Below are positions 2,245 to 28,810 of a stretch of 46,879 nt of DNA, piece after piece. Under the pieces are notes generated by a model. It saw only the letters and a program-made list of their open reading frames with translations. It was not told where the DNA came from and ran no database searches. The position numbers were made by a program, and so were the translations under genes. This stretch comes from an uncultured Anaerolineae bacterium (GTDB lineage Bacteria; Chloroflexota; Anaerolineae; Promineifilales; Promineifilaceae): contig CALECP010000256.1 in assembly GCA_937949915.1 (NCBI GenBank), forward strand, positions 1 through 46,879, read 5' to 3'. Numbering within the stretch: position 1 is the first letter of the stretch; each line of letters opens with the position of its first letter.

Positions 2245-2576
2245 AATGTGATAAACGTGACGAATTGAGTAAATAGCGGTCTAAACTTTATGCACAGACG
2301 AAAGAAGTTGTCCATAGGCGCAATCTTCTGTAATGTCTATGTGTTCTTTATGTTGAATAGCAGTTAGTTAGTAAAGGGTAGTAGTAGGTGTCAGGGTTAA
2401 AACACTCGTATTTATAGACCGGAATTTATTTTCCGAACCCGCACCCGTAATTCATCTTGAAAAACAAATAATAGGAAAAGGATAAAAACATCTACAGTGC
2501 TGTAGAGGTTTGCTTACGCTTGCCTCCACGCATATTTAGAAGCGTTGGCTTCTATGTAGTTAAAGAGGAAAAATCT
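2245..2576 (+). promoter_or_regulatory. Leader/regulatory region of the giant surface protein
   Basis: These 332 bases hold no convincing gene and no CGGCCG. Two hairpins stand out: CTACAG-TG-CTGTAG (2492-2505), and AGAAGC-GTTG-GCTTCT (2538-2553) just before the ribosome binding site AAAGAGG (about 2555-2561). The segment between has GAGG/CCTC complementarity around 2505-2527. It could be a structured 5' leader or an operator. I could not match it to a known riboswitch. Confidence 0.35.
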
Positions 2577-5500
2577 ATGAAACAGACTAAATCAATTCAA
2601 CTCATGCTCTTTTTGTTTGCATGTATGATGCTTGCACTTGGCATTGTGGCAACAACCGATTCGGTGTATGCACAATCGCCAGCTTACGCTCCGACACAAA
2701 CGGCTTGTGATAGCCACGAAACCAGCTTGCTAGACTGGAACGATACACTTGTTCTTCCTGCATTTGATCCAGCTTTGGGTACATTGACCTCAGTTGAGCT
2801 GACTGGCTCTATCCAAATTACAACAACTTTTCTTTTGCGTAATCTAAACGCATTAGAAAATACGATTTTTGGTACATACGAGGCGGAGTTGAGTGTTTTG
2901 TTACCGGATGGGTCATTTTTGTCAGTTGATGCGACAGCAAGCGTTACTGAAACGTTGCCTGGAGCGACAGACCCATTTAACCCACCTGAGATCACGGTCA
3001 ATGGCGCACCGATTGCAAGTGCTGATGTGATACAGTACACACCTTTTGCTGATTTTGTTGGCGCGCCGGGTACCATGATTTCATTTACAACGGCTGCAAA
3101 TTCTGAAGACTTGCAGTTGTCGAGTACGGAGGGCAGCCAGGGTGGCGATGCGTTTAGTTTTGGCGAGTCTGAACTGTGTGTAACTTACACATACGAGCCT
3201 TATGGCAGCATCGGCGACACGATTTACCATGATGCGGATGCGAGTGGGACACAAGAGAGTGGTGAGCCTGGTTTGCCGGGTGTGGTTGTTTCTTTGGATG
3301 ATGGTATGGGCAATGTCATCACTGCGACGACAACAATCACAGGCTTTTATCAGTTTGATACGCTGCCGATGGGGACGTATACGATTACGGTAGATACAAC
3401 CAACCTACCGGGACAAAAAGAGTTAGCACCTAGTGATGATCCTGAAGGGGACGGTAATGTTGTTGCGACAACGACGCTGGCTGTAGATGATCCGGGTACG
3501 GCCGAGGATGAGGCGCATGATCCAGAACAAGACTTTGGTTTCCGGCCGCTCGTGCCTGGTGTCGAGATCGTGAAGACGGCCGGAGATGCGGCCGATGGTG
3601 GCGTATACATGACGGCTGCCGGTGATGTCCTTTATACCTTTGTTGTGAGCAATACGGGTGAGACACATTTGAGTGATTTGGTTATTGTTGACGATTTGGG
3701 AACGGCCGCAGCGGCCGATGATGTGACCCTGACCAGCGCTGAGTGCGGCGGTTTGGCAGGTCCACTTGCCCCGGGCGGTACTGTTGAGTGTACGCTGACA
3801 TTGCCTGTGACCGAAGATACAACCAACGTCGCTGGTGTGACGGGTACGCCTACCACGCCCAGTGGCGACGACATTCCTGATTTGACTGATCCGACTGATG
3901 ATGACGATGCTGTTGTCGAAATTTTGACACCCGGTATTGAGATCGTGAAAACGGCCGGAGATGCGGCCGATGGCGATGTGCTGACTACTGCACCGGGCGA
4001 TGTTGTTTACACCTACGTCATTACCAACACTGGTAACACCAACTTAGCGGATGTTACTGTTGTTGATGATGCAGGTACACCGACGGATAGTGGCGATGAT
4101 GTAACGATTGATGGAGCGATTTGTGCGGCACTGATGGCTGTTTTAGCTCCGGGTGAAAGTGTGACTTGTACCGCGACATTGACAGTTAACACTGATACGA
4201 CAAACGTGGCTGATGTGACTGGTTTGCCTGTGGACGATGGTGGCGACCCGTTGCCAAATGTTGATCCGCCGATGGATGATGATCCGGCCGAGGTTGTGGT
4301 TATTTTAGGGCAGATCGGCGACTTTATTTTCCATGATGCGAACAATGACGGTGTTTATGATCCGGCCGATGGCGATACACCATTACCAAACGTGATCGTG
4401 ACACTGACTGATGCCAATGGCAACGACACCATCGAAACGACCGACGGAAACGGCTTCTATTTATTCGACAATTTGCCGATGGGTCAGTACACCATTACGG
4501 TGGACACGCGCACCATTTCGCCAGAAAAAATAGTTGTGCCATCGGCCGATCCTGAAAATGATGGCGATAGTACATCAGAGGTAACGTTGACAGAAAGCGA
4601 GCCGACTGATCTTGTCCAAGATTTTGGCTACTCGCCTATCTTGGGGAGCTTGGGCGACACCATTTTCCATGATATAGACGGCAATGGTGTGTACAACATC
4701 AGCGAGGGCGACTTCCCGCTCAAAGATGTCGATGTCATCCTTGAAGATGAGAACGGCATTACCCAAACGACGACGACGGATGCGAATGGCTTCTATCAGT
4801 TTACCGATTTGCCGCTTGGCACATACACGGTGACAGTGGATGCTGATACAGTGCCGACTGATAAAGTGGATGATCCCACGGCCGATCCCGATGACGATGG
4901 CGACGAAACAGCCACTACTACCCTGACAGCAGATGCACCAAATGACCCCACGCTCGACTTCGGTTATTCACCTGTTTTGGGTCGCATCGGCGACTTGATT
5001 TTCCATGATACAGATGGTGATGGTGTATACGAACCGAATGATGGCGACTTCCCGTTGTCTAACGTCGTTGTGACGTTAACAGACGAAAATGGTGTGGAAA
5101 CGCGAGAAACAACAAATGGGAGCGGTATCTATCTATTTGAAAATTTGCCGATGGGTGACTACACCATTACGGTAGACACGCGCACCCTGGCGACAGAAAA
5201 AGTGGTGATTCCATCGGCCGACCCTGACAATGATGGCGATAGCACTTCAGATGTAAGATTGACGGAGAATGATCCGGCCGATCTTGAGCAAGATTTCGGT
5301 TATCGGCCGATTTTGGGCAGCTTGGGCGACACCATTTTCCATGATATAGACGGCAATGGTGTGTACAACATCAGCCAGGGCGACTTCCCGCTCAAAGATG
5401 TCGATGTCATCCTTGAAGATGAGAACGGTATTACCCAAACGACGACAACAGATGCAAACGGCTTCTATTTGTTCACCGATTTGCCGCTTGGCGCATACAC

Positions 5501-8162
5501 AGTGACAGTGGATGCCAATACAGTACCGACTGATAAAGTGGATGCCCCCACGGACGATCCTGAAGATAATGGTGACGGAACAGCCACCACTATCCTGACA
5601 CCTGATGAGCCAAGTGACTCGACGCTCGACTTCGGGTACGAGCCAGTTTTGGGCAGCATTGGTGACTTGATTTTCCATGATGCGGATGGTGATGGCGTGT
5701 TTGAACCGGCCGATGGCGATTTCCCATTGGCTGATGTGCTTGTTGTGTTGACCGACGAGGGCGGCGACGAAATGACGACCACAACGGACGAAAGTGGCAA
5801 CTATTTGTTCGATATGCTGCCATTAGGTGCGTATACTGTGACTGTTGATGTGCGTACATTGACCATTGATAAAGTGACTGACCCCACGGCCGATCCTGAA
5901 AACGACGGTGACAATAGCTCTGAAACTGTTTTGACCGAAGACGCGCCTGACGACATGATGCAGGACTTTGGCTATCAGCCCGGTGCTGGCAGCATTGGCG
6001 ATACCATTTTCCACGATGCAAATGGTGATGGTGTGTACGATGCTGACGATGGTGACTTCCCATTGCCCGGTGTCGTGATTACGCTCACGGCCGCAAGCGG
6101 CGATGCGATTACAACGACGACCGGCACAGATGGCATGTATCAATTCACCAATTTGCCATTTGGTGACTACACGGTGACGATTGATGAAACGACATTGCCG
6201 GATGACAAAGTAGGCGAGCCTTCGGCCGATCCTGAAGGCGACGGCGACAACAGTTCGTCTGTTTCATTGTCTCCGACTGAGCCGACTAATGATGACCAAG
6301 ATTTTGGCTACGAGCCTATTTTGAGCAGCATTGGTGACACTGTTTGGTTTGACCTAGATGGCAATGGTGAGCAGGATACAGGCGAATTGGGCATCGAAAA
6401 TGTGACTGTTGTGCTAACGGATGAGGACGGCGGCCAAACAGTGGACTTCACCGATAGCGATGGCATGTATTTGTTCGATGGCTTGACGGCCGGGACGTAC
6501 ACCGTCACTGTCATTCCTAGCTCGTTACCGCTCAACGACCCATTGATCGCGCTCATCAGCCAAACGTATGATGCCGATGGCTTGGATACGCCTGATCAAT
6601 CAGTCTATGAGCTGGGCGAAGCAGAAGACGACCGTGACCAAGACTTCGGTTATCAACCATCGCCACCACAAGGTAGCATCGGCGGTACTATTTACAATGA
6701 CCCTGATGGTATTCCGATGAACGAAGATGATGCGCTGATTGCAGATGGCGTGGTTGTTAAATTGCTCAATGAGGCTGGCGATGTGATCGAGACGGCCGTG
6801 ACCCAAGATGGCATATACTTGTTCCCCAATCTGCCTCTGGGCGCATATACTGTTGAAGTAGATACAACAACTATCCCCGAAACGAAATTGGGCGACACGT
6901 CTACTTACCCCGACCCGCTTGCTATTGTCTTGAGTGAAACTGACCCGCTTGATGTGGACAATGATTTCGGCTACCCGACAACGGTTGGCAGCATTGGCGA
7001 CACTATTTTCCATGATACAGATAGCGATGGCGTGTATGAGCCAGATGACGGCGACTTCCCATTACCTAACGTGATCGTGACTTTGACTGACGAAAACGGC
7101 AATGAAACGCTGGAAACGACTGACGAAGACGGCATGTATTTGTTTGACGAGTTGGTGTTTGGTGCATATACGGTGACTGTAGACACACGCACCTTACCAG
7201 AGGACAAAGTAGACGATACACCAACGGCCGATCCCGAAGATGATGGCGACAGTACATCAGCTACAATGGTTAGCAATGGTGAGCCGAATGACTTAGATCA
7301 AGATTTCGGTTATGGACCAGTTTTGGGTAGCGTGGGCGATATGATCTTCCATGATGCGGATGGCGACGGCGTGTACAACCCCGATTCGGACGATAGACCA
7401 TTGGCTGATGTCGCTGTGACGTTGACAGACGCATCAGGTACTGAGTGGACAACAAATACGAACGAGAGTGGTGAGTATCTCTTCGAGAGCCTGCCATTGG
7501 GCGACTACACAGTCACTATTGATGAGACGACATTACCGAACGATAAGAGCAACGTCCCCTCAGCCGATCCTGAAAACGATGGCGACAACAATTCGTCTGT
7601 CAGTCTGACAGTCGATACGCCAAATAATCTCGATCAAGATTATGGTTATCAATCACCAGAAGTAGAAGAGTTACGCGGTAGCATCGGCAACTTTGTGTTC
7701 TATGACTTTGATGCAAATGGCTTGAATCCATCTGTAGAAAATGACTTCAACTTGCCGTTGCCTAATGTATTTGTCCAATTGATAGATTCAGATGGCAATA
7801 TCGAGACAGAGGTCACAGATGCAAGAGGATATTATCTGTTCGATGATTTGCCGATGGGTACATACACTGTCACGGTGGTGAACTCGACGGTTCTCTCGCC
7901 ATACGATCCGTTCGATCAAGTGGCACTTGACATCACGTATGATCCGACGGGCGCGGCCGATGGTGTTTCGACCACGACGCTTACCCCAGATGCACCCGAC
8001 GTAGTTGACCAAGATTTCGGTTACTGGCGTGAACCAAAACCGACCAGCGTGAACTTGGCTGACCTGACCACACAATCATGGTCATTGGCTCTGGTTGCGA
8101 TCACGATGACGACACTGCTGACGGCCGTAACGGGCTGGGCGACTGTCAAACGCAACAGCTAG
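2577..8162 (+). CDS. Giant cell-surface protein of DUF11 and SdrD-like repeats with C-terminal sorting tail
   Basis: About 1861 residues from ATG 2577, which has an AAAGAGG ribosome binding site. An in-frame start at 2520 is less likely because it would bury the signal peptide. Order: signal peptide (MKQTK, then a hydrophobic core ending VYAQS); a unique N-terminal beta domain (to about 3200); one SdrD/Cna-B-like module (about 3205); two DUF11-like modules starting with EIVKTAGDAADG (about 3560 and 3940); then eleven more SdrD-like modules of about 112 residues starting near 4310, 4648, 4980, 5320, 5652, 5987, 6323, 6672, 6987, 7323 and 7678. Most open with IGDxIFHDxDGDGVY, an acidic DxDGDG loop likely to bind calcium. 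The C-terminus (8040-8159) is PTSVNL, a membrane span and VKRNS. Likely a stalk or adhesin on the cell surface. The protein is very acidic. Its terminator follows at 8187. Confidence 0.88.
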   Translation: MKQTKSIQLMLFLFACMMLALGIVATTDSVYAQSPAYAPTQTACDSHETSLLDWNDTLVLPAFDPALGTLTSVELTGSIQITTTFLLRNLNALENTIFGTYEAELSVLLPDGSFLSVDATASVTETLPGATDPFNPPEITVNGAPIASADVIQYTPFADFVGAPGTMISFTTAANSEDLQLSSTEGSQGGDAFSFGESELCVTYTYEPYGSIGDTIYHDADASGTQESGEPGLPGVVVSLDDGMGNVITATTTITGFYQFDTLPMGTYTITVDTTNLPGQKELAPSDDPEGDGNVVATTTLAVDDPGTAEDEAHDPEQDFGFRPLVPGVEIVKTAGDAADGGVYMTAAGDVLYTFVVSNTGETHLSDLVIVDDLGTAAAADDVTLTSAECGGLAGPLAPGGTVECTLTLPVTEDTTNVAGVTGTPTTPSGDDIPDLTDPTDDDDAVVEILTPGIEIVKTAGDAADGDVLTTAPGDVVYTYVITNTGNTNLADVTVVDDAGTPTDSGDDVTIDGAICAALMAVLAPGESVTCTATLTVNTDTTNVADVTGLPVDDGGDPLPNVDPPMDDDPAEVVVILGQIGDFIFHDANNDGVYDPADGDTPLPNVIVTLTDANGNDTIETTDGNGFYLFDNLPMGQYTITVDTRTISPEKIVVPSADPENDGDSTSEVTLTESEPTDLVQDFGYSPILGSLGDTIFHDIDGNGVYNISEGDFPLKDVDVILEDENGITQTTTTDANGFYQFTDLPLGTYTVTVDADTVPTDKVDDPTADPDDDGDETATTTLTADAPNDPTLDFGYSPVLGRIGDLIFHDTDGDGVYEPNDGDFPLSNVVVTLTDENGVETRETTNGSGIYLFENLPMGDYTITVDTRTLATEKVVIPSADPDNDGDSTSDVRLTENDPADLEQDFGYRPILGSLGDTIFHDIDGNGVYNISQGDFPLKDVDVILEDENGITQTTTTDANGFYLFTDLPLGAYTVTVDANTVPTDKVDAPTDDPEDNGDGTATTILTPDEPSDSTLDFGYEPVLGSIGDLIFHDADGDGVFEPADGDFPLADVLVVLTDEGGDEMTTTTDESGNYLFDMLPLGAYTVTVDVRTLTIDKVTDPTADPENDGDNSSETVLTEDAPDDMMQDFGYQPGAGSIGDTIFHDANGDGVYDADDGDFPLPGVVITLTAASGDAITTTTGTDGMYQFTNLPFGDYTVTIDETTLPDDKVGEPSADPEGDGDNSSSVSLSPTEPTNDDQDFGYEPILSSIGDTVWFDLDGNGEQDTGELGIENVTVVLTDEDGGQTVDFTDSDGMYLFDGLTAGTYTVTVIPSSLPLNDPLIALISQTYDADGLDTPDQSVYELGEAEDDRDQDFGYQPSPPQGSIGGTIYNDPDGIPMNEDDALIADGVVVKLLNEAGDVIETAVTQDGIYLFPNLPLGAYTVEVDTTTIPETKLGDTSTYPDPLAIVLSETDPLDVDNDFGYPTTVGSIGDTIFHDTDSDGVYEPDDGDFPLPNVIVTLTDENGNETLETTDEDGMYLFDELVFGAYTVTVDTRTLPEDKVDDTPTADPEDDGDSTSATMVSNGEPNDLDQDFGYGPVLGSVGDMIFHDADGDGVYNPDSDDRPLADVAVTLTDASGTEWTTNTNESGEYLFESLPLGDYTVTIDETTLPNDKSNVPSADPENDGDNNSSVSLTVDTPNNLDQDYGYQSPEVEELRGSIGNFVFYDFDANGLNPSVENDFNLPLPNVFVQLIDSDGNIETEVTDARGYYLFDDLPMGTYTVTVVNSTVLSPYDPFDQVALDITYDPTGAADGVSTTTLTPDAPDVVDQDFGYWREPKPTSVNLADLTTQSWSLALVAITMTTLLTAVTGWATVKRNS
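4647..5450 (+). repeat. Near-identical internal duplication of SdrD-like modules
   Basis: About 130 bases beginning at 4647 recur at 5319 with only about two differences, then diverge further. The offset is 672 bases, exactly two 112-residue modules. Neighbouring modules are much more diverged, so this points to a recent two-module duplication or gene conversion. Confidence 0.8.
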
Positions 8163-23834: not shown

Positions 23835-24018
23835 TGCGTTCGCATGTGTTGACATGCCTCCTAGAGGCGATGGTCGCCTTGCGCGGCCGTGTACCAGAGT
23901 AAGGCGATGGCGACAAACGCATTGATTTCGGCCGAAAAAACAGGCAGGATTTTTGTGTGTATGAAACAGTTCGTATTACTCGCAATGAGACGGACAACGT
24001 ATTATCATCGTGCCACTT

Positions 24019-25122
24019 ATGAAAGTGGTGATGGTCTCCAAAGCGTGCGTCTCCGGGGCGTACCAAACAAAGCTCGAAGCGATTGGGCAAACCCCCGATA
24101 TTGATTTGACCGTTGTCGTCCCCCCCAGTTGGGGCGAAGCGGGAGGCAATCTGACGCTCGAATCGAGCCACACCAATGGGTACCGGCTACAAGTTGAACC
24201 GATCCGCTTCAATGGCAAGCACCATCTGCATTATTATCCTGGTCTCCCCAAACTGCTGCGCGACATCAAGCCCGACATCGTACACATGGATGAAGAGCCG
24301 TATAGCTTTGTGACATGGCACGGGATGCGCCATGCGCGAAAAGCAGGCGCGAAAGTGCTGTTTTTCTCGTGGCAAAACATCTATCGAGACTATCCGCCGC
24401 CGTTTCGCTGGATCGAGCAAAAGGTGCTGGCGTGGTCGCGCTACGGAATTATGGGCAATGCCGCGGCCGATCAGATTTGGCGGCGCAAAGGGTTCACGGG
24501 TGATTCGATGGTGCTGCCACAATTTGGGGTGACACCCTCATTGTTTACACCACGCGGCGCACGTTCGGCCGCGCAATTTGTCATCGGCTCTGCCAGCCGC
24601 CGCCTCAACCCAGAGAAAGGGGTTGACCTTATTTTGCGCGCGGCCGCACGTCTTCCCGGCAATTGGCAGATCAAAATTGCGGGAGATGGTGGCGCACGAG
24701 CCGAGCTAGAAAAATTGGCAGATGACCTTTCTATCAAAGAGCGTGTCCAATTTGTAGGAAAGATCGGTTCGGAAGATGTTCCCGCCTTTTTACGACAGCT
24801 AGACGTGATGGTGTTGCCATCGCGCACACTGCCCACCTGGAAAGAGCAGTTCGGCCGGGTGATCATCGAGTCGATGGCGTGTGAAGTCCCTGTGATCGGC
24901 TCTGATAGTGGCGAGATTCCCAATGTGATCGGTGATGCCGGCCTCGTTTTCCCAGAAGATGACGTTGATGCGCTGTATGAGCATTTGTACATGCTGCAAC
25001 AATCGACGGCCGCACGGGAACAGCTTGGCAAAAAGGGCCGCGCTTGGGCATTAGCCAACTACACACAATCCCAGATCGCAGGGAAAACGGTGGCTATTTA
25101 TCACGCAATTATGAGAGAGTAA
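24019..25122 (+). CDS. Glycosyltransferase family 4 (GT-B fold)
   Basis: About 367 residues from ATG 24019. GTG 24010 is an alternative, with TATTAT just upstream. The N-terminal Rossmann half starts KVVMVSKACVSGAYQTKLEAIG. The C-terminal half has IGSASRRLNPEKGVDLILRAAARL, IAGDGGARAELEKLADDL and the EX7E motif in EQFGRVIIESMACEVPVIGSDSGEIPNVI, which binds the nucleotide-sugar donor. This is a retaining, soluble GT4 enzyme of cell-envelope polysaccharide or glycolipid synthesis. The acceptor and sugar are unknown. It follows the GH operon after 184 bases with no clear terminator, so it may be transcribed separately. Confidence 0.92.
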   Translation: MKVVMVSKACVSGAYQTKLEAIGQTPDIDLTVVVPPSWGEAGGNLTLESSHTNGYRLQVEPIRFNGKHHLHYYPGLPKLLRDIKPDIVHMDEEPYSFVTWHGMRHARKAGAKVLFFSWQNIYRDYPPPFRWIEQKVLAWSRYGIMGNAAADQIWRRKGFTGDSMVLPQFGVTPSLFTPRGARSAAQFVIGSASRRLNPEKGVDLILRAAARLPGNWQIKIAGDGGARAELEKLADDLSIKERVQFVGKIGSEDVPAFLRQLDVMVLPSRTLPTWKEQFGRVIIESMACEVPVIGSDSGEIPNVIGDAGLVFPEDDVDALYEHLYMLQQSTAAREQLGKKGRAWALANYTQSQIAGKTVAIYHAIMRE

Positions 25123-25181: not shown

Positions 25182-26357
25182 TTGAGCGCATTACGCAAAG
25201 GGTTGCGAATAATCGGATTGGTGTTGATCGTTGCCGCTATTTTGGCTGCATACTTTGGTTTTGTGGTGATGATGGGCGTTCGCAGTGGCGAATCGGAACG
25301 GGCGGAGCGGCAGATCGCTACCGTCAATGCTGATGTCGTCATCAATTATACGCTGGCACAAGATAGCCTAGAGGCGGAGAATTACGTGTTGGCCGAACGG
25401 GCGATTGAGCGTGTTATGACCGAGATTCCGTATGCGACGGCCGGAGACGTGAGCCGCGAAGATGTCGATATACTGTATGCGGAGATCGTCGGCCGTCAGG
25501 CATCTATTCCGATGCCTACCGCCACAGTCGAACTGCTGCCCCCGCCCGAAGCGACCGCTACCCGCCGCCCGACGCGCACACCGCGCCCCGGCACAGACGA
25601 CCGCACACCTGAACCAGCGACAAAAACGCCGCAGCCCACCCTAGAACCGACAACTGAACCAACGAAAACAGTAGACGAAGAAGAGCTAAACGAGGAGATC
25701 GCGGCCGCCGAAACATTGCTCGAAAACAGCAAGTATGAAAGCGCCGTTGAAGCGTTGATCGCGTTCCAGCTGGTGAACCCTAATTATGAACGGTATCGTA
25801 CCGATTCGCTGCTATTTGATGCGTATATCGGCGTTGGTTTTCAGTTGACATCGGGCAACGAAGTGTCTCGCGGGGTCAACTATCTTGAGCTGGCGCAACG
25901 GCTTGGTACATTGCCTGCCTCGGCCGACGCGCAGCTACAATCGTCCAAACTTTACCTGCAAGGACTGGCATATCGCGGCATTCGCTGGCCTGTTTCTATC
26001 GCCAATTTCAGCAGTCTGTGCGGGTATGCGCCCGGTTTTCATGATCCGTGTGGCTTGCTGTACGATGCGTATGTCGCCTACGGTCGCCAACTGGCCGAAA
26101 GCGGTTCACCTTGCTTGGCTATCGAGCAATATCAACTCGCGTATGCTCAGTCTGCTACGGCCGCGCTCAATCAACCGCTTGCTCAGGCAGAAGCTGACTG
26201 CACGGCTGACAAAGCGAAGGCCGGTATCACAACAACGATCAAAGCGACCGTCGCCATCACCGACACAGGCGGCACGCTGACCATTATGCCCCTCCCCACA
26301 CAAACGTTGCGGCCGGGACAAGGCCCCTGGACACCCACACCTGAACCGAATGAATGA
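25182..26357 (+). CDS. Membrane-anchored TPR-like protein with Pro/Thr-rich linker
   Basis: 391 residues. The start is TTG at 25182, chosen because GGAGAG sits six bases upstream. One N-terminal membrane span (GLRIIGLVLIVAAILAAYFGFVVMMG, about 7-32) is followed by a helical segment and a Pro/Thr-rich linker (about 105-165, RRPTRTPRPGTDDRTPEPATKTPQP). A TPR-like domain follows (about 168-340; repeats such as AETLLENSKYESAVEALIAFQLVNP and SGSPCLAIEQYQLAYAQS), and then a Pro-rich tail. The domain likely faces outside. No enzyme motif is seen. It lies directly before the LuxR-Kelch gene, on the same strand, 85 bases apart, so the two may work together. A promoter-like TATACT is near 25125. Confidence 0.7.
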   Translation: MSALRKGLRIIGLVLIVAAILAAYFGFVVMMGVRSGESERAERQIATVNADVVINYTLAQDSLEAENYVLAERAIERVMTEIPYATAGDVSREDVDILYAEIVGRQASIPMPTATVELLPPPEATATRRPTRTPRPGTDDRTPEPATKTPQPTLEPTTEPTKTVDEEELNEEIAAAETLLENSKYESAVEALIAFQLVNPNYERYRTDSLLFDAYIGVGFQLTSGNEVSRGVNYLELAQRLGTLPASADAQLQSSKLYLQGLAYRGIRWPVSIANFSSLCGYAPGFHDPCGLLYDAYVAYGRQLAESGSPCLAIEQYQLAYAQSATAALNQPLAQAEADCTADKAKAGITTTIKATVAITDTGGTLTIMPLPTQTLRPGQGPWTPTPEPNE

Positions 26358-26442
26358 TTGAGATCGGCGTTGTGAATTTGTTGTTAAAAACGATTCGATA
26401 CGGGCGACATTCCAGAAAAAGTTAGTAGAATAATGGCGATTT

Positions 26443-27894
26443 ATGGCTGAATATGGCGAGCGTTTGAGTGTCCGCGAAATGGATGTATTGGTTGTGTTGT
26501 CAAAAGGGGCGACCAACAATGAAGTTGCCCAGCACCTGTCGATCAGCCCGAATACGGTCAAGGTACATGTCCGCAATATCTACGCCAAGCTGGGTGCATC
26601 GAACCGGACGGAGGCGGTGGCGATTGCGACGGGGCAGGGGCTTTTTGAGACGGAGGAGAAGATAGAAGAGAAGATAGAGATAGAGGCGGGAGATAGAGAA
26701 GGGGATTTGGTTGAGGGGGTTGAGACGGCCGAGCAGGTAGCAAGTGCGAGTGATGAAGAAAAAGCATTTGAGCCGCTCCCTGTCGCTCCGCCTCCTGTAT
26801 CCCCTTTGCCGGAATCGAATACATCTTCGGAATCGAATACATCTTCTTTCATTTGGTTACTGCCGCTTTTGGTGTTGGCTGTGGGGATTGTGGGCTTTTT
26901 GGGCTGGCGGTCTATGCAGGGGCAGGAAACGGCCGCGCTTTCTGCGACGGCCGTGCCGCTACCGGTCGCTACTTTTGCGCCACAGCCGATTGGCGATAAC
27001 ACGTATTGGTCAACGACTGCCCCGATGCCGGAAGAGCGCGAGGGGTTTGCGCTGGCAGCGGCCGGGTCAGACGTGTATGCCATTGGTGGCGAAACGGCCG
27101 TGGGCGTGACAGGCGCAGGCGTTGCCCTCACGACGCGCACCAACGTATGGCGATCATTAACAGAAAAACCGACGGCCGTGCGCGATGCGGCCGCGGGCGT
27201 GGTGCTGGGTCAGGTGATCATCCCCGGCGGCATGACGGCCGAGAATGCGCCCACCGATGTCGTCGAAATCTACAGCCCGTCCAATGATGCGTGGCGCACG
27301 GCCGCCGCCCTGCCGCAACCGATCAGTGGCGCAGTCACTATCGCCTACAATGACAATATCTACCTGTTTGGTGGCACGAATGGCACGGCCGCGCTGTCCA
27401 CAGCGTTTGTGTACGATCCGGCCGCCGATGCGTGGCGGCCGTTGCCCGATATGCTGACCGGCCGCACAGGGGCAACGGGTGGCGTGGTGCAAAATCAGCT
27501 TTATGTTGTCGGTGGCCAAGCCGCCGGACAAGAGTTAACGACGTGCGAAGCGTTTGACCCGGCGGCCGAACAGTGGCAGCCATGTGCCGATATGCTGCAA
27601 CCGCGCAGTCAGGCGACCAGTGCAACATTGCTCAATAAATTGTATGTGGTGGGGGGCGGTTTGGCAGAAGGGCGGCCGTATGGCGAGTTGTATGACCCGA
27701 TTGCTGATACGTGGCAAGTGTTTAATTTGCCGATGCTGGACACAGACACCCAATGGTTGGGCAGCGCGATGACAACGGTCGAAACGCGCATCTATCTATT
27801 TGGCGGCCGTCGCCAAAACAAACGCACAAACGACAGCTACATCTACAATGCGCTACCGTTCCAATTTTTTGTACCGTCTACTATTCGGGATTGA
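26443..27894 (+). CDS. Transmembrane one-component regulator: LuxR-type HTH, membrane span, Kelch propeller
   Basis: 483 residues. The N-terminus is a LuxR/GerE DNA-binding domain (about 5-62): LSVREMDVLVVLSKGATNNEVAQHL, then SPNTVKVHVRNIYAKLGASNRTEAV. An acidic Glu-rich linker (about 68-112) and a Pro-rich segment lead to one membrane span (FIWLLPLLVLAVGIVGFLGW, about 135-154). The rest (about 185-480) is five or six Kelch repeats, for example DNIYLFGG, NQLYVVGG, NKLYVVGG and RIYLFGGR with VYDPAADAW and LYDPIADTW. The topology is HTH inside and propeller outside, like ToxR or CadC but with different domains. TAGAAT lies 11 bases before the ATG and no Shine-Dalgarno is visible. The Kelch part likely senses a ligand or partner. 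Confidence 0.85.
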   Translation: MAEYGERLSVREMDVLVVLSKGATNNEVAQHLSISPNTVKVHVRNIYAKLGASNRTEAVAIATGQGLFETEEKIEEKIEIEAGDREGDLVEGVETAEQVASASDEEKAFEPLPVAPPPVSPLPESNTSSESNTSSFIWLLPLLVLAVGIVGFLGWRSMQGQETAALSATAVPLPVATFAPQPIGDNTYWSTTAPMPEEREGFALAAAGSDVYAIGGETAVGVTGAGVALTTRTNVWRSLTEKPTAVRDAAAGVVLGQVIIPGGMTAENAPTDVVEIYSPSNDAWRTAAALPQPISGAVTIAYNDNIYLFGGTNGTAALSTAFVYDPAADAWRPLPDMLTGRTGATGGVVQNQLYVVGGQAAGQELTTCEAFDPAAEQWQPCADMLQPRSQATSATLLNKLYVVGGGLAEGRPYGELYDPIADTWQVFNLPMLDTDTQWLGSAMTTVETRIYLFGGRRQNKRTNDSYIYNALPFQFFVPSTIRD

Positions 27895-28333: not shown

Positions 28334-28810
28334 ATGATTATTGTCGCTGATAGTTCTGCACTTATCGCTTTGGCGACCTGCTCATCATTGAGTGTGTTGG
28401 TTGATTTGTATGATGATGTCTATGTCCCGATTTCTGTCTATCAAGAGGTAAGTCAACTCGATAAACCACAAGCTGTTGTTTTGAAAGAGTTCCTGCGTGA
28501 GCGAATTATCGAAGTTGATCAAAATCAACTCGTCATTGCTGTTGGTGGATTAGGTACAGGCGAGCTTGAAGCAATGGCACTGTATCAGCAGCTCAATGCT
28601 CACAAATTGCTGATTGATGATCGTCGGGCAAGACGTGTGGCCGAGGCAAACGGGATTGATTGTATTGGTGCTCTGGGTATATTGTTACTGGCGAAGAATA
28701 AAGGGTCTATTGCCGAAATTAGACCGTTGATAAATCAACTTCGTGATTCAACGTTGCATTATTCAAATGCCATTTTGAATAAAGTTTTGCAGTTAGCTGG
28801 TGAGACATAA
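28334..28810 (+). CDS. DUF3368-family PIN-domain toxin
   Basis: 158 residues. It opens IIVADSSALIALATC, the first PIN strand with Asp6. Further landmarks are VPISVYQEV (about 32), GTGELEAMALYQQ (about 76, acidic pair), LLIDDRRARRVAEANGI (about 95, third acidic site) and GALGILLLAKNKGSI, characteristic of DUF3368. These are PIN ribonucleases paired with UPF0175 antitoxins. The gene starts two bases after the antitoxin stop, so it is translationally coupled. All catalytic acids are present, so the toxin is probably functional. The RNA target is unknown. Confidence 0.85.
   Translation: MIIVADSSALIALATCSSLSVLVDLYDDVYVPISVYQEVSQLDKPQAVVLKEFLRERIIEVDQNQLVIAVGGLGTGELEAMALYQQLNAHKLLIDDRRARRVAEANGIDCIGALGILLLAKNKGSIAEIRPLINQLRDSTLHYSNAILNKVLQLAGET

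Follow-up and report, generated by a model that had tools for sequence, protein, structure and literature searches.

The window, a 46,879-nucleotide stretch of DNA from an uncultured Anaerolineae bacterium, encodes a 483 amino acid protein (26443–27894, forward strand) in which an N-terminal LuxR-type helix-turn-helix (HTH), one membrane span and a C-terminal Kelch propeller are joined in a single chain. This LuxR-TM-Kelch protein (LTK) is very probably a membrane-anchored regulator with its Kelch part outside, and it probably works as a single-pass one-component transcription regulator, the propeller receiving an envelope cue and the HTH acting on few promoters, with surface-glycan genes as the most plausible targets. 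The combination of LuxR and Kelch, conserved phylum-wide, appears to be new within the literature searched, while the HTH-TM-propeller layout as such is not unique.

The LTK reading frame opens with an ATG at 26443 and closes with the stop at 27894 (483 codons), an in-frame TAA lying 12 bases upstream at 26431, and has 126 full-length homologous loci. Residues 7–62 (26461–26628) form a GerE/LuxR-type HTH (Pfam, 68.0 bits against a gathering cut-off of 23.5), and residues 189–470 (27007–27852) the propeller (Kelch_1, 157.6 bits in five stretches, with a Kelch match at residues 190–470); both Pfam matches are far beyond chance. Between them lie an acidic linker (residues 66–134; 26638–26844), containing 16 E and 3 D against 3 K and 1 R, and a transmembrane helix (residues 136–159; 26848–26919), whose best 19-mer (136–154) has a hydropathy score of 2.53. 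No second span was indicated by hydropathy. Across the family the linker has a median net charge of -6 and a length of 13–105 residues. The order originally read from the letters, LuxR/GerE domain, acidic linker, one span and Kelch repeats in a single protein, is exact at these coordinates by Pfam and hydropathy, domain and topology prediction having recovered GerE, one TM and Kelch. That reading had left the repeats at five or six; the propeller stands, and its repeats number exactly six, with tryptophans at 189, 236, 284, 331, 378 and 424 and GG pairs at 215, 262, 310, 357, 404 and 454, spaced by 47–50 residues. The HTH of PF00196 proteins is usually C-terminal, following a receiver, autoinducer or ATPase domain; that of LTK is N-terminal, and the domain search returned no receiver or autoinducer domain. 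With a DNA-binding domain and a TM in one chain, and without two-component core domains, LTK has the layout of a one-component transmembrane regulator.

An AlphaFold2 (AF2) model built on 42 homologues agrees with these assignments of the HTH, span and propeller. Its pLDDT is approximately 95 in the HTH and 98 in the propeller, and falls in the linker from about residue 87, to below 50 at residues 87–108 and 122–136, this region being disordered in the model. The transmembrane helix spans residues 139–159. The propeller consists of six four-stranded blades, a first strand at 189–191 closing the ring. A Foldseek search of the PDB returned six-bladed Kelch structures with TM-scores of about 0.8 normalised to the target, the best being the designed SAKe proteins, Keap1, KLHL17/20 and NS1-BP. 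Keap1/KLHL-type and SAKe propellers share the six-bladed fold with LTK; the former are eukaryotic ubiquitin-ligase adaptors, the latter are designed, and none has an HTH or a TM.

Topology and conservation were assessed on 121 distinct full-length LTK proteins, the counts from which are non-independent through kinship. Within 14 residues of the TM, lysine and arginine are more numerous on the HTH side in 78 proteins and less numerous in nine. The positive-inside rule makes the basic flank of a span the cytoplasmic one, so this excess assigns the HTH to the cytoplasmic side. Cys368 and Cys381 (27544–27585) are both present in 55 of the 121 proteins and both absent in 59, only seven having one of them; in the AF2 model they lie opposite each other on adjacent strands (368–372 and 377–381) of one hairpin. 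Paired keeping and loss, together with these facing positions, fit a candidate extracytoplasmic disulfide. The charge bias, the cysteine pair and the homologues thus all uphold the proposed orientation, LuxR HTH inside and Kelch outside.

The mean frequency of the commonest residue is 0.74 in the HTH and 0.47 in the Kelch part, with 0.31 in the TM and 0.48 in the linker. Ten HTH residues (R11, E12, G22, T38, V39, K40, H42, N45, K49 and R55) are conserved in 96–100% of the 121 homologues, and those of the recognition helix at 93–100%. That the HTH, recognition helix included, is conserved above the propeller indicates that DNA binding is under selection. In the propeller the conserved residues are almost all structural tryptophans, glycines, tyrosines and prolines, joined by K242, P243, E275 and Y307, and nothing of the His, Cys and Tyr catalytic or metal-ligand set of galactose oxidase/NanM-type Kelch enzymes is conserved in the 121 propellers. 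Since no histidine is conserved and the conservation is structural, an enzyme of the galactose oxidase kind is unlikely.

A homologue of LTK was found in 53 of 58 relatives, full-length in 52 and truncated at a contig end in one; the relatives without it are mostly incomplete assemblies. All 126 full-length loci (121 distinct proteins) have HTH, TM and Kelch in that order, as the search for homologues proposed originally was meant to establish, and both GerE and Kelch were matched in 42 of 42 members from named genomes. A frameshift joining two genes, and loss of the span in homologues, had been named as evidence against the protein. The span is present in 121 of 121 distinct homologues (minimum hydropathy 1.6), and no frameshift was found. 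Two genes fused by a frameshift or misassembly would account for an unusual domain combination and for nothing more; this artefact is so improbable as to be negligible and is rejected, given full-length homologues of the same order in the 52 relatives and 126 full-length loci from independent assemblies, among them that of the cultured strain Herpetosiphon geysericola DSM 7119. The other LuxR-type proteins examined in the window's genome are all soluble receiver-HTH response regulators, which makes the span specific to LTK there.

The hosts of LTK belong to the Anaerolineae and Chloroflexia and include Roseiflexus, Oscillochloris, Thermoflexus, Bellilinea and Anaerolinea; when 301 Chloroflexota genomes were sampled evenly, a full-length match came from about 44 of them. 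There is usually one copy per genome, with two in a Roseiflexus MAG. In a quick tree of LTK the window's family and the Chloroflexia each remain nearly intact, in line with a mostly vertical inheritance. Outside the Chloroflexota, no match including the HTH was obtained in 247 genomes from the phylum to which an Acidobacteria MAG belongs, and no plasmid record covered 80% of the query; both searches were samples, not exhaustive. One Anaerolineales family (f23) is without LTK, the 17 of its genomes that were rescored having given no match extending into the Kelch part. These LTK-less Anaerolineales carry other proteins with an N-terminal LuxR HTH, a single TM and an extracytoplasmic domain without a Pfam name (L280:167–1609; L281:454–1554, reverse strand; L279:159–1430), and such LuxR-TM-X proteins, judged from their predicted domains, are a modular class in Anaerolineales.

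Regulators of the ToxR/CadC/TcpP type carry OmpR-type winged helices. Like LTK, they have an N-terminal cytoplasmic HTH, one span and a C-terminal extracytoplasmic sensor, and often a membrane partner encoded alongside them (PMC10269533, Table 1). They differ in having a winged helix and other sensor folds, where LTK combines an HTH of the LuxR/GerE type with a Kelch propeller. Trans_reg_C had no match in the LTK of the window and did not appear in a tally of the families matched by 42 members; lacking this domain, LTK is predicted to resemble the ToxR/CadC-type regulators in its working and is not a member of their family. The original prediction had described membrane regulators as users of OmpR winged helices and other sensor folds, which is correct for ToxR and CadC, but the class is not confined to these: a survey puts the number of transmembrane regulators above 50,000 and that of their types of DNA-binding domain above one hundred (PMC10269533), and Acidobacteriota have Trans_reg_C-TM-PD40 proteins. 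The text of that survey makes no mention of Kelch or of a propeller (PMC10269533).

The Acidobacteriota proteins (L271 and L275) share with LTK an N-terminal HTH, a single span and a C-terminal beta-propeller, so that an arrangement with the propeller outside and the HTH inside exists with other parts. They have a winged helix and a WD40-like PD40 propeller and are many per genome, whereas LTK has a LuxR HTH and a Kelch propeller and occurs about once; to our knowledge they are uncharacterised. Two phyla have thus built HTH-TM-propeller proteins out of different components, and LTK adds a LuxR HTH and a Kelch propeller to the combinations found among transmembrane regulators. The Reg_prop/Y_Y_Y receptors of Bacteroidota, which comprise hybrid two-component systems and LuxR-type versions and mostly use His-Asp phosphotransfer, likewise have a TM that connects an extracytoplasmic beta-propeller with a DNA-binding domain, but in the reverse order, with an N-terminal propeller of another family and a C-terminal DNA-binding domain. 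A literature search for Kelch with LuxR, Chloroflexi, Chloroflexus or one-component returned no description of a LuxR-TM-Kelch regulator, in agreement with the original statement that none has been characterised.

In the window's family LTK is usually the last gene of a predicted three-gene operon, which opens with a GT4-type glycosyltransferase (24010–25122, forward strand) and continues with a membrane-TPR protein (25182–26357, forward strand) possessing an N-terminal TM, a Pro/Thr stalk, a TPR-like domain and four invariant cysteines. This order was found in 25–27 loci of the family, with a gap between the TPR gene and LTK of 3–142 bp in 25 of 26. A gene for a PMT-type mannosyltransferase usually lies divergently upstream of the operon; past this gene come surface genes of the LysM and SdrD-like kinds. 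The TPR-like partner is without a Pfam family and is widespread in Anaerolineae. An obligate partner in the manner of ToxS is rejected as a general rule, because the protein is found also in LTK-less genomes and its linkage to LTK is limited to the window's family.

Upstream of the operon in this family is a 29-bp element, TTGTCAAAnCnnnGCAAGTATAGCAAAA, which is almost invariant while its flanks are not. It occurs exactly once per genome in 30 of the family's 52 genomes, the reversed-pattern control having no occurrence in family genomes, and lies between the divergent PMT-like and GT4 genes in 20 of 20 loci examined (L282–L301; e.g. L290, about 1501–1528). The window and its own genome contain no copy. 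In at least two family genomes the element and LTK are apart: in G018 it stays with PMT/GT4 although LTK lies elsewhere, and in G015 it is still present with LTK in another neighbourhood. One reading takes it as a pair of divergent promoters that overlap, with TTGTCA-N17-CAAAAT in the forward direction and, in several genomes, TTGACA-N16-TGCTATACT in the reverse, and it may be no more than that. Its length, uniqueness and position suggest a candidate site for a bound regulator, LTK being the local candidate. In other lineages, the n18/LTK and n36/LTK intergenic alignments contained no conserved operator directly upstream of LTK, and k-mers in the LTK-upstream intergenic regions were hardly above shuffles.

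In the proposed mechanism, the cytoplasmic LuxR-type HTH would sit on a flexible acidic linker and the Kelch propeller would be exposed outside the membrane, where it would bind a surface glycan, a wall polymer or a surface protein of the cell envelope. A plausible candidate role of the propeller, suggested originally, is to sense an extracellular ligand or protein directly. Binding would alter how the HTH dimerises or is spaced, or would free it by proteolysis. The HTH would act on few promoters, with nearby surface-glycan genes as its most plausible targets; for the window's family, the divergent promoter between the PMT-like gene and the GT4 > TPR > LTK operon would be the best candidate. 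Rigid transmission of a signal is hard to picture through a linker that is long, acidic, disordered in the model and of variable length (13–105 residues). These same features favour a protein inactive at the membrane until regulated intramembrane proteolysis releases the HTH, but no conserved cleavage motif was seen in the poorly conserved TM and linker, no dedicated protease gene adjoins LTK, and release of this kind is rather unlikely. It is highly improbable that LTK serves chiefly as an adhesin or scaffold at the surface, in which the HTH survives as a remnant with a structural or dimerisation role: Kelch propellers are common as modules that bind proteins or ligands, and the operator is only a candidate, but no part of the protein is as well conserved as the HTH, its recognition helix included.

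As to the nature of the cue, the gene neighbourhood suggests a signal from the cell surface or from a glycan rather than a generic ligand; that both the cue and the targets of LTK belong to the envelope or its glycans is put at somewhat short of an even chance. A transmembrane regulator with a cue and targets unrelated to glycans, such as the TPR partner or the redox state of the cysteine pair, and with the glycosyltransferase neighbourhood as background, is possible if on the doubtful side. Neighbours of LTK vary widely outside the window's family, the cysteine pair occurs in about half of the members, and the best structural matches are Keap1-like Kelch domains, Keap1 propellers being binders of peptides. 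Every one of these genomes has many GT4 genes, roughly 6–14 per Mb, the genome-wide density from which the expectation below was derived. Against that background, GT4 genes lie within 3 kb of LTK in 11 of 35 genomes outside the window's family, where at most 2.0 were expected (approximately 5-fold), an enrichment weaker than its counts because many of the positive loci are related. The enrichment recurs, in differing gene arrangements, in the window's family, in family f39 of the Chloroflexia and in some Anaerolineaceae, LTK standing beside GT4 and GT2 genes in the latter two. Within 5 kb a GT4 gene was found in 19 of 90 LTK loci outside the window's family, many lineages being without a glycan link. 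Under the preferred reading of an envelope sensor, LTK would, more tentatively, constitute a new family, usually of one member per genome, in which Kelch reads the envelope and the HTH controls envelope-glycosylation genes through a single-copy site, serving envelope homeostasis in Chloroflexota. Members of this phylum have unusual envelopes, are filamentous and form biofilms, and little is known of how they sense their own surface; the occurrence of LTK in most Anaerolineae families sampled and in Chloroflexia, with a defined sensor, a defined HTH and a possible target site, opens surface sensing to test.

Several further genes were noted around LTK or elsewhere in the window. Unnamed secreted families without Pfam matches recur beside it in other lineages, n18 in Chloroflexia and n6 in Chloroflexia and Anaerolineaceae (for example L196:4490–6856 and L123:9212–10651). 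In the window, LTK is followed just downstream by a toxin-antitoxin-type gene for a PIN-like DUF3368 protein (28334–28810), and a surface protein of 1880 amino acids (2520–8162) contains many near-identical SdrD_B-like repeats, as read from its translation.
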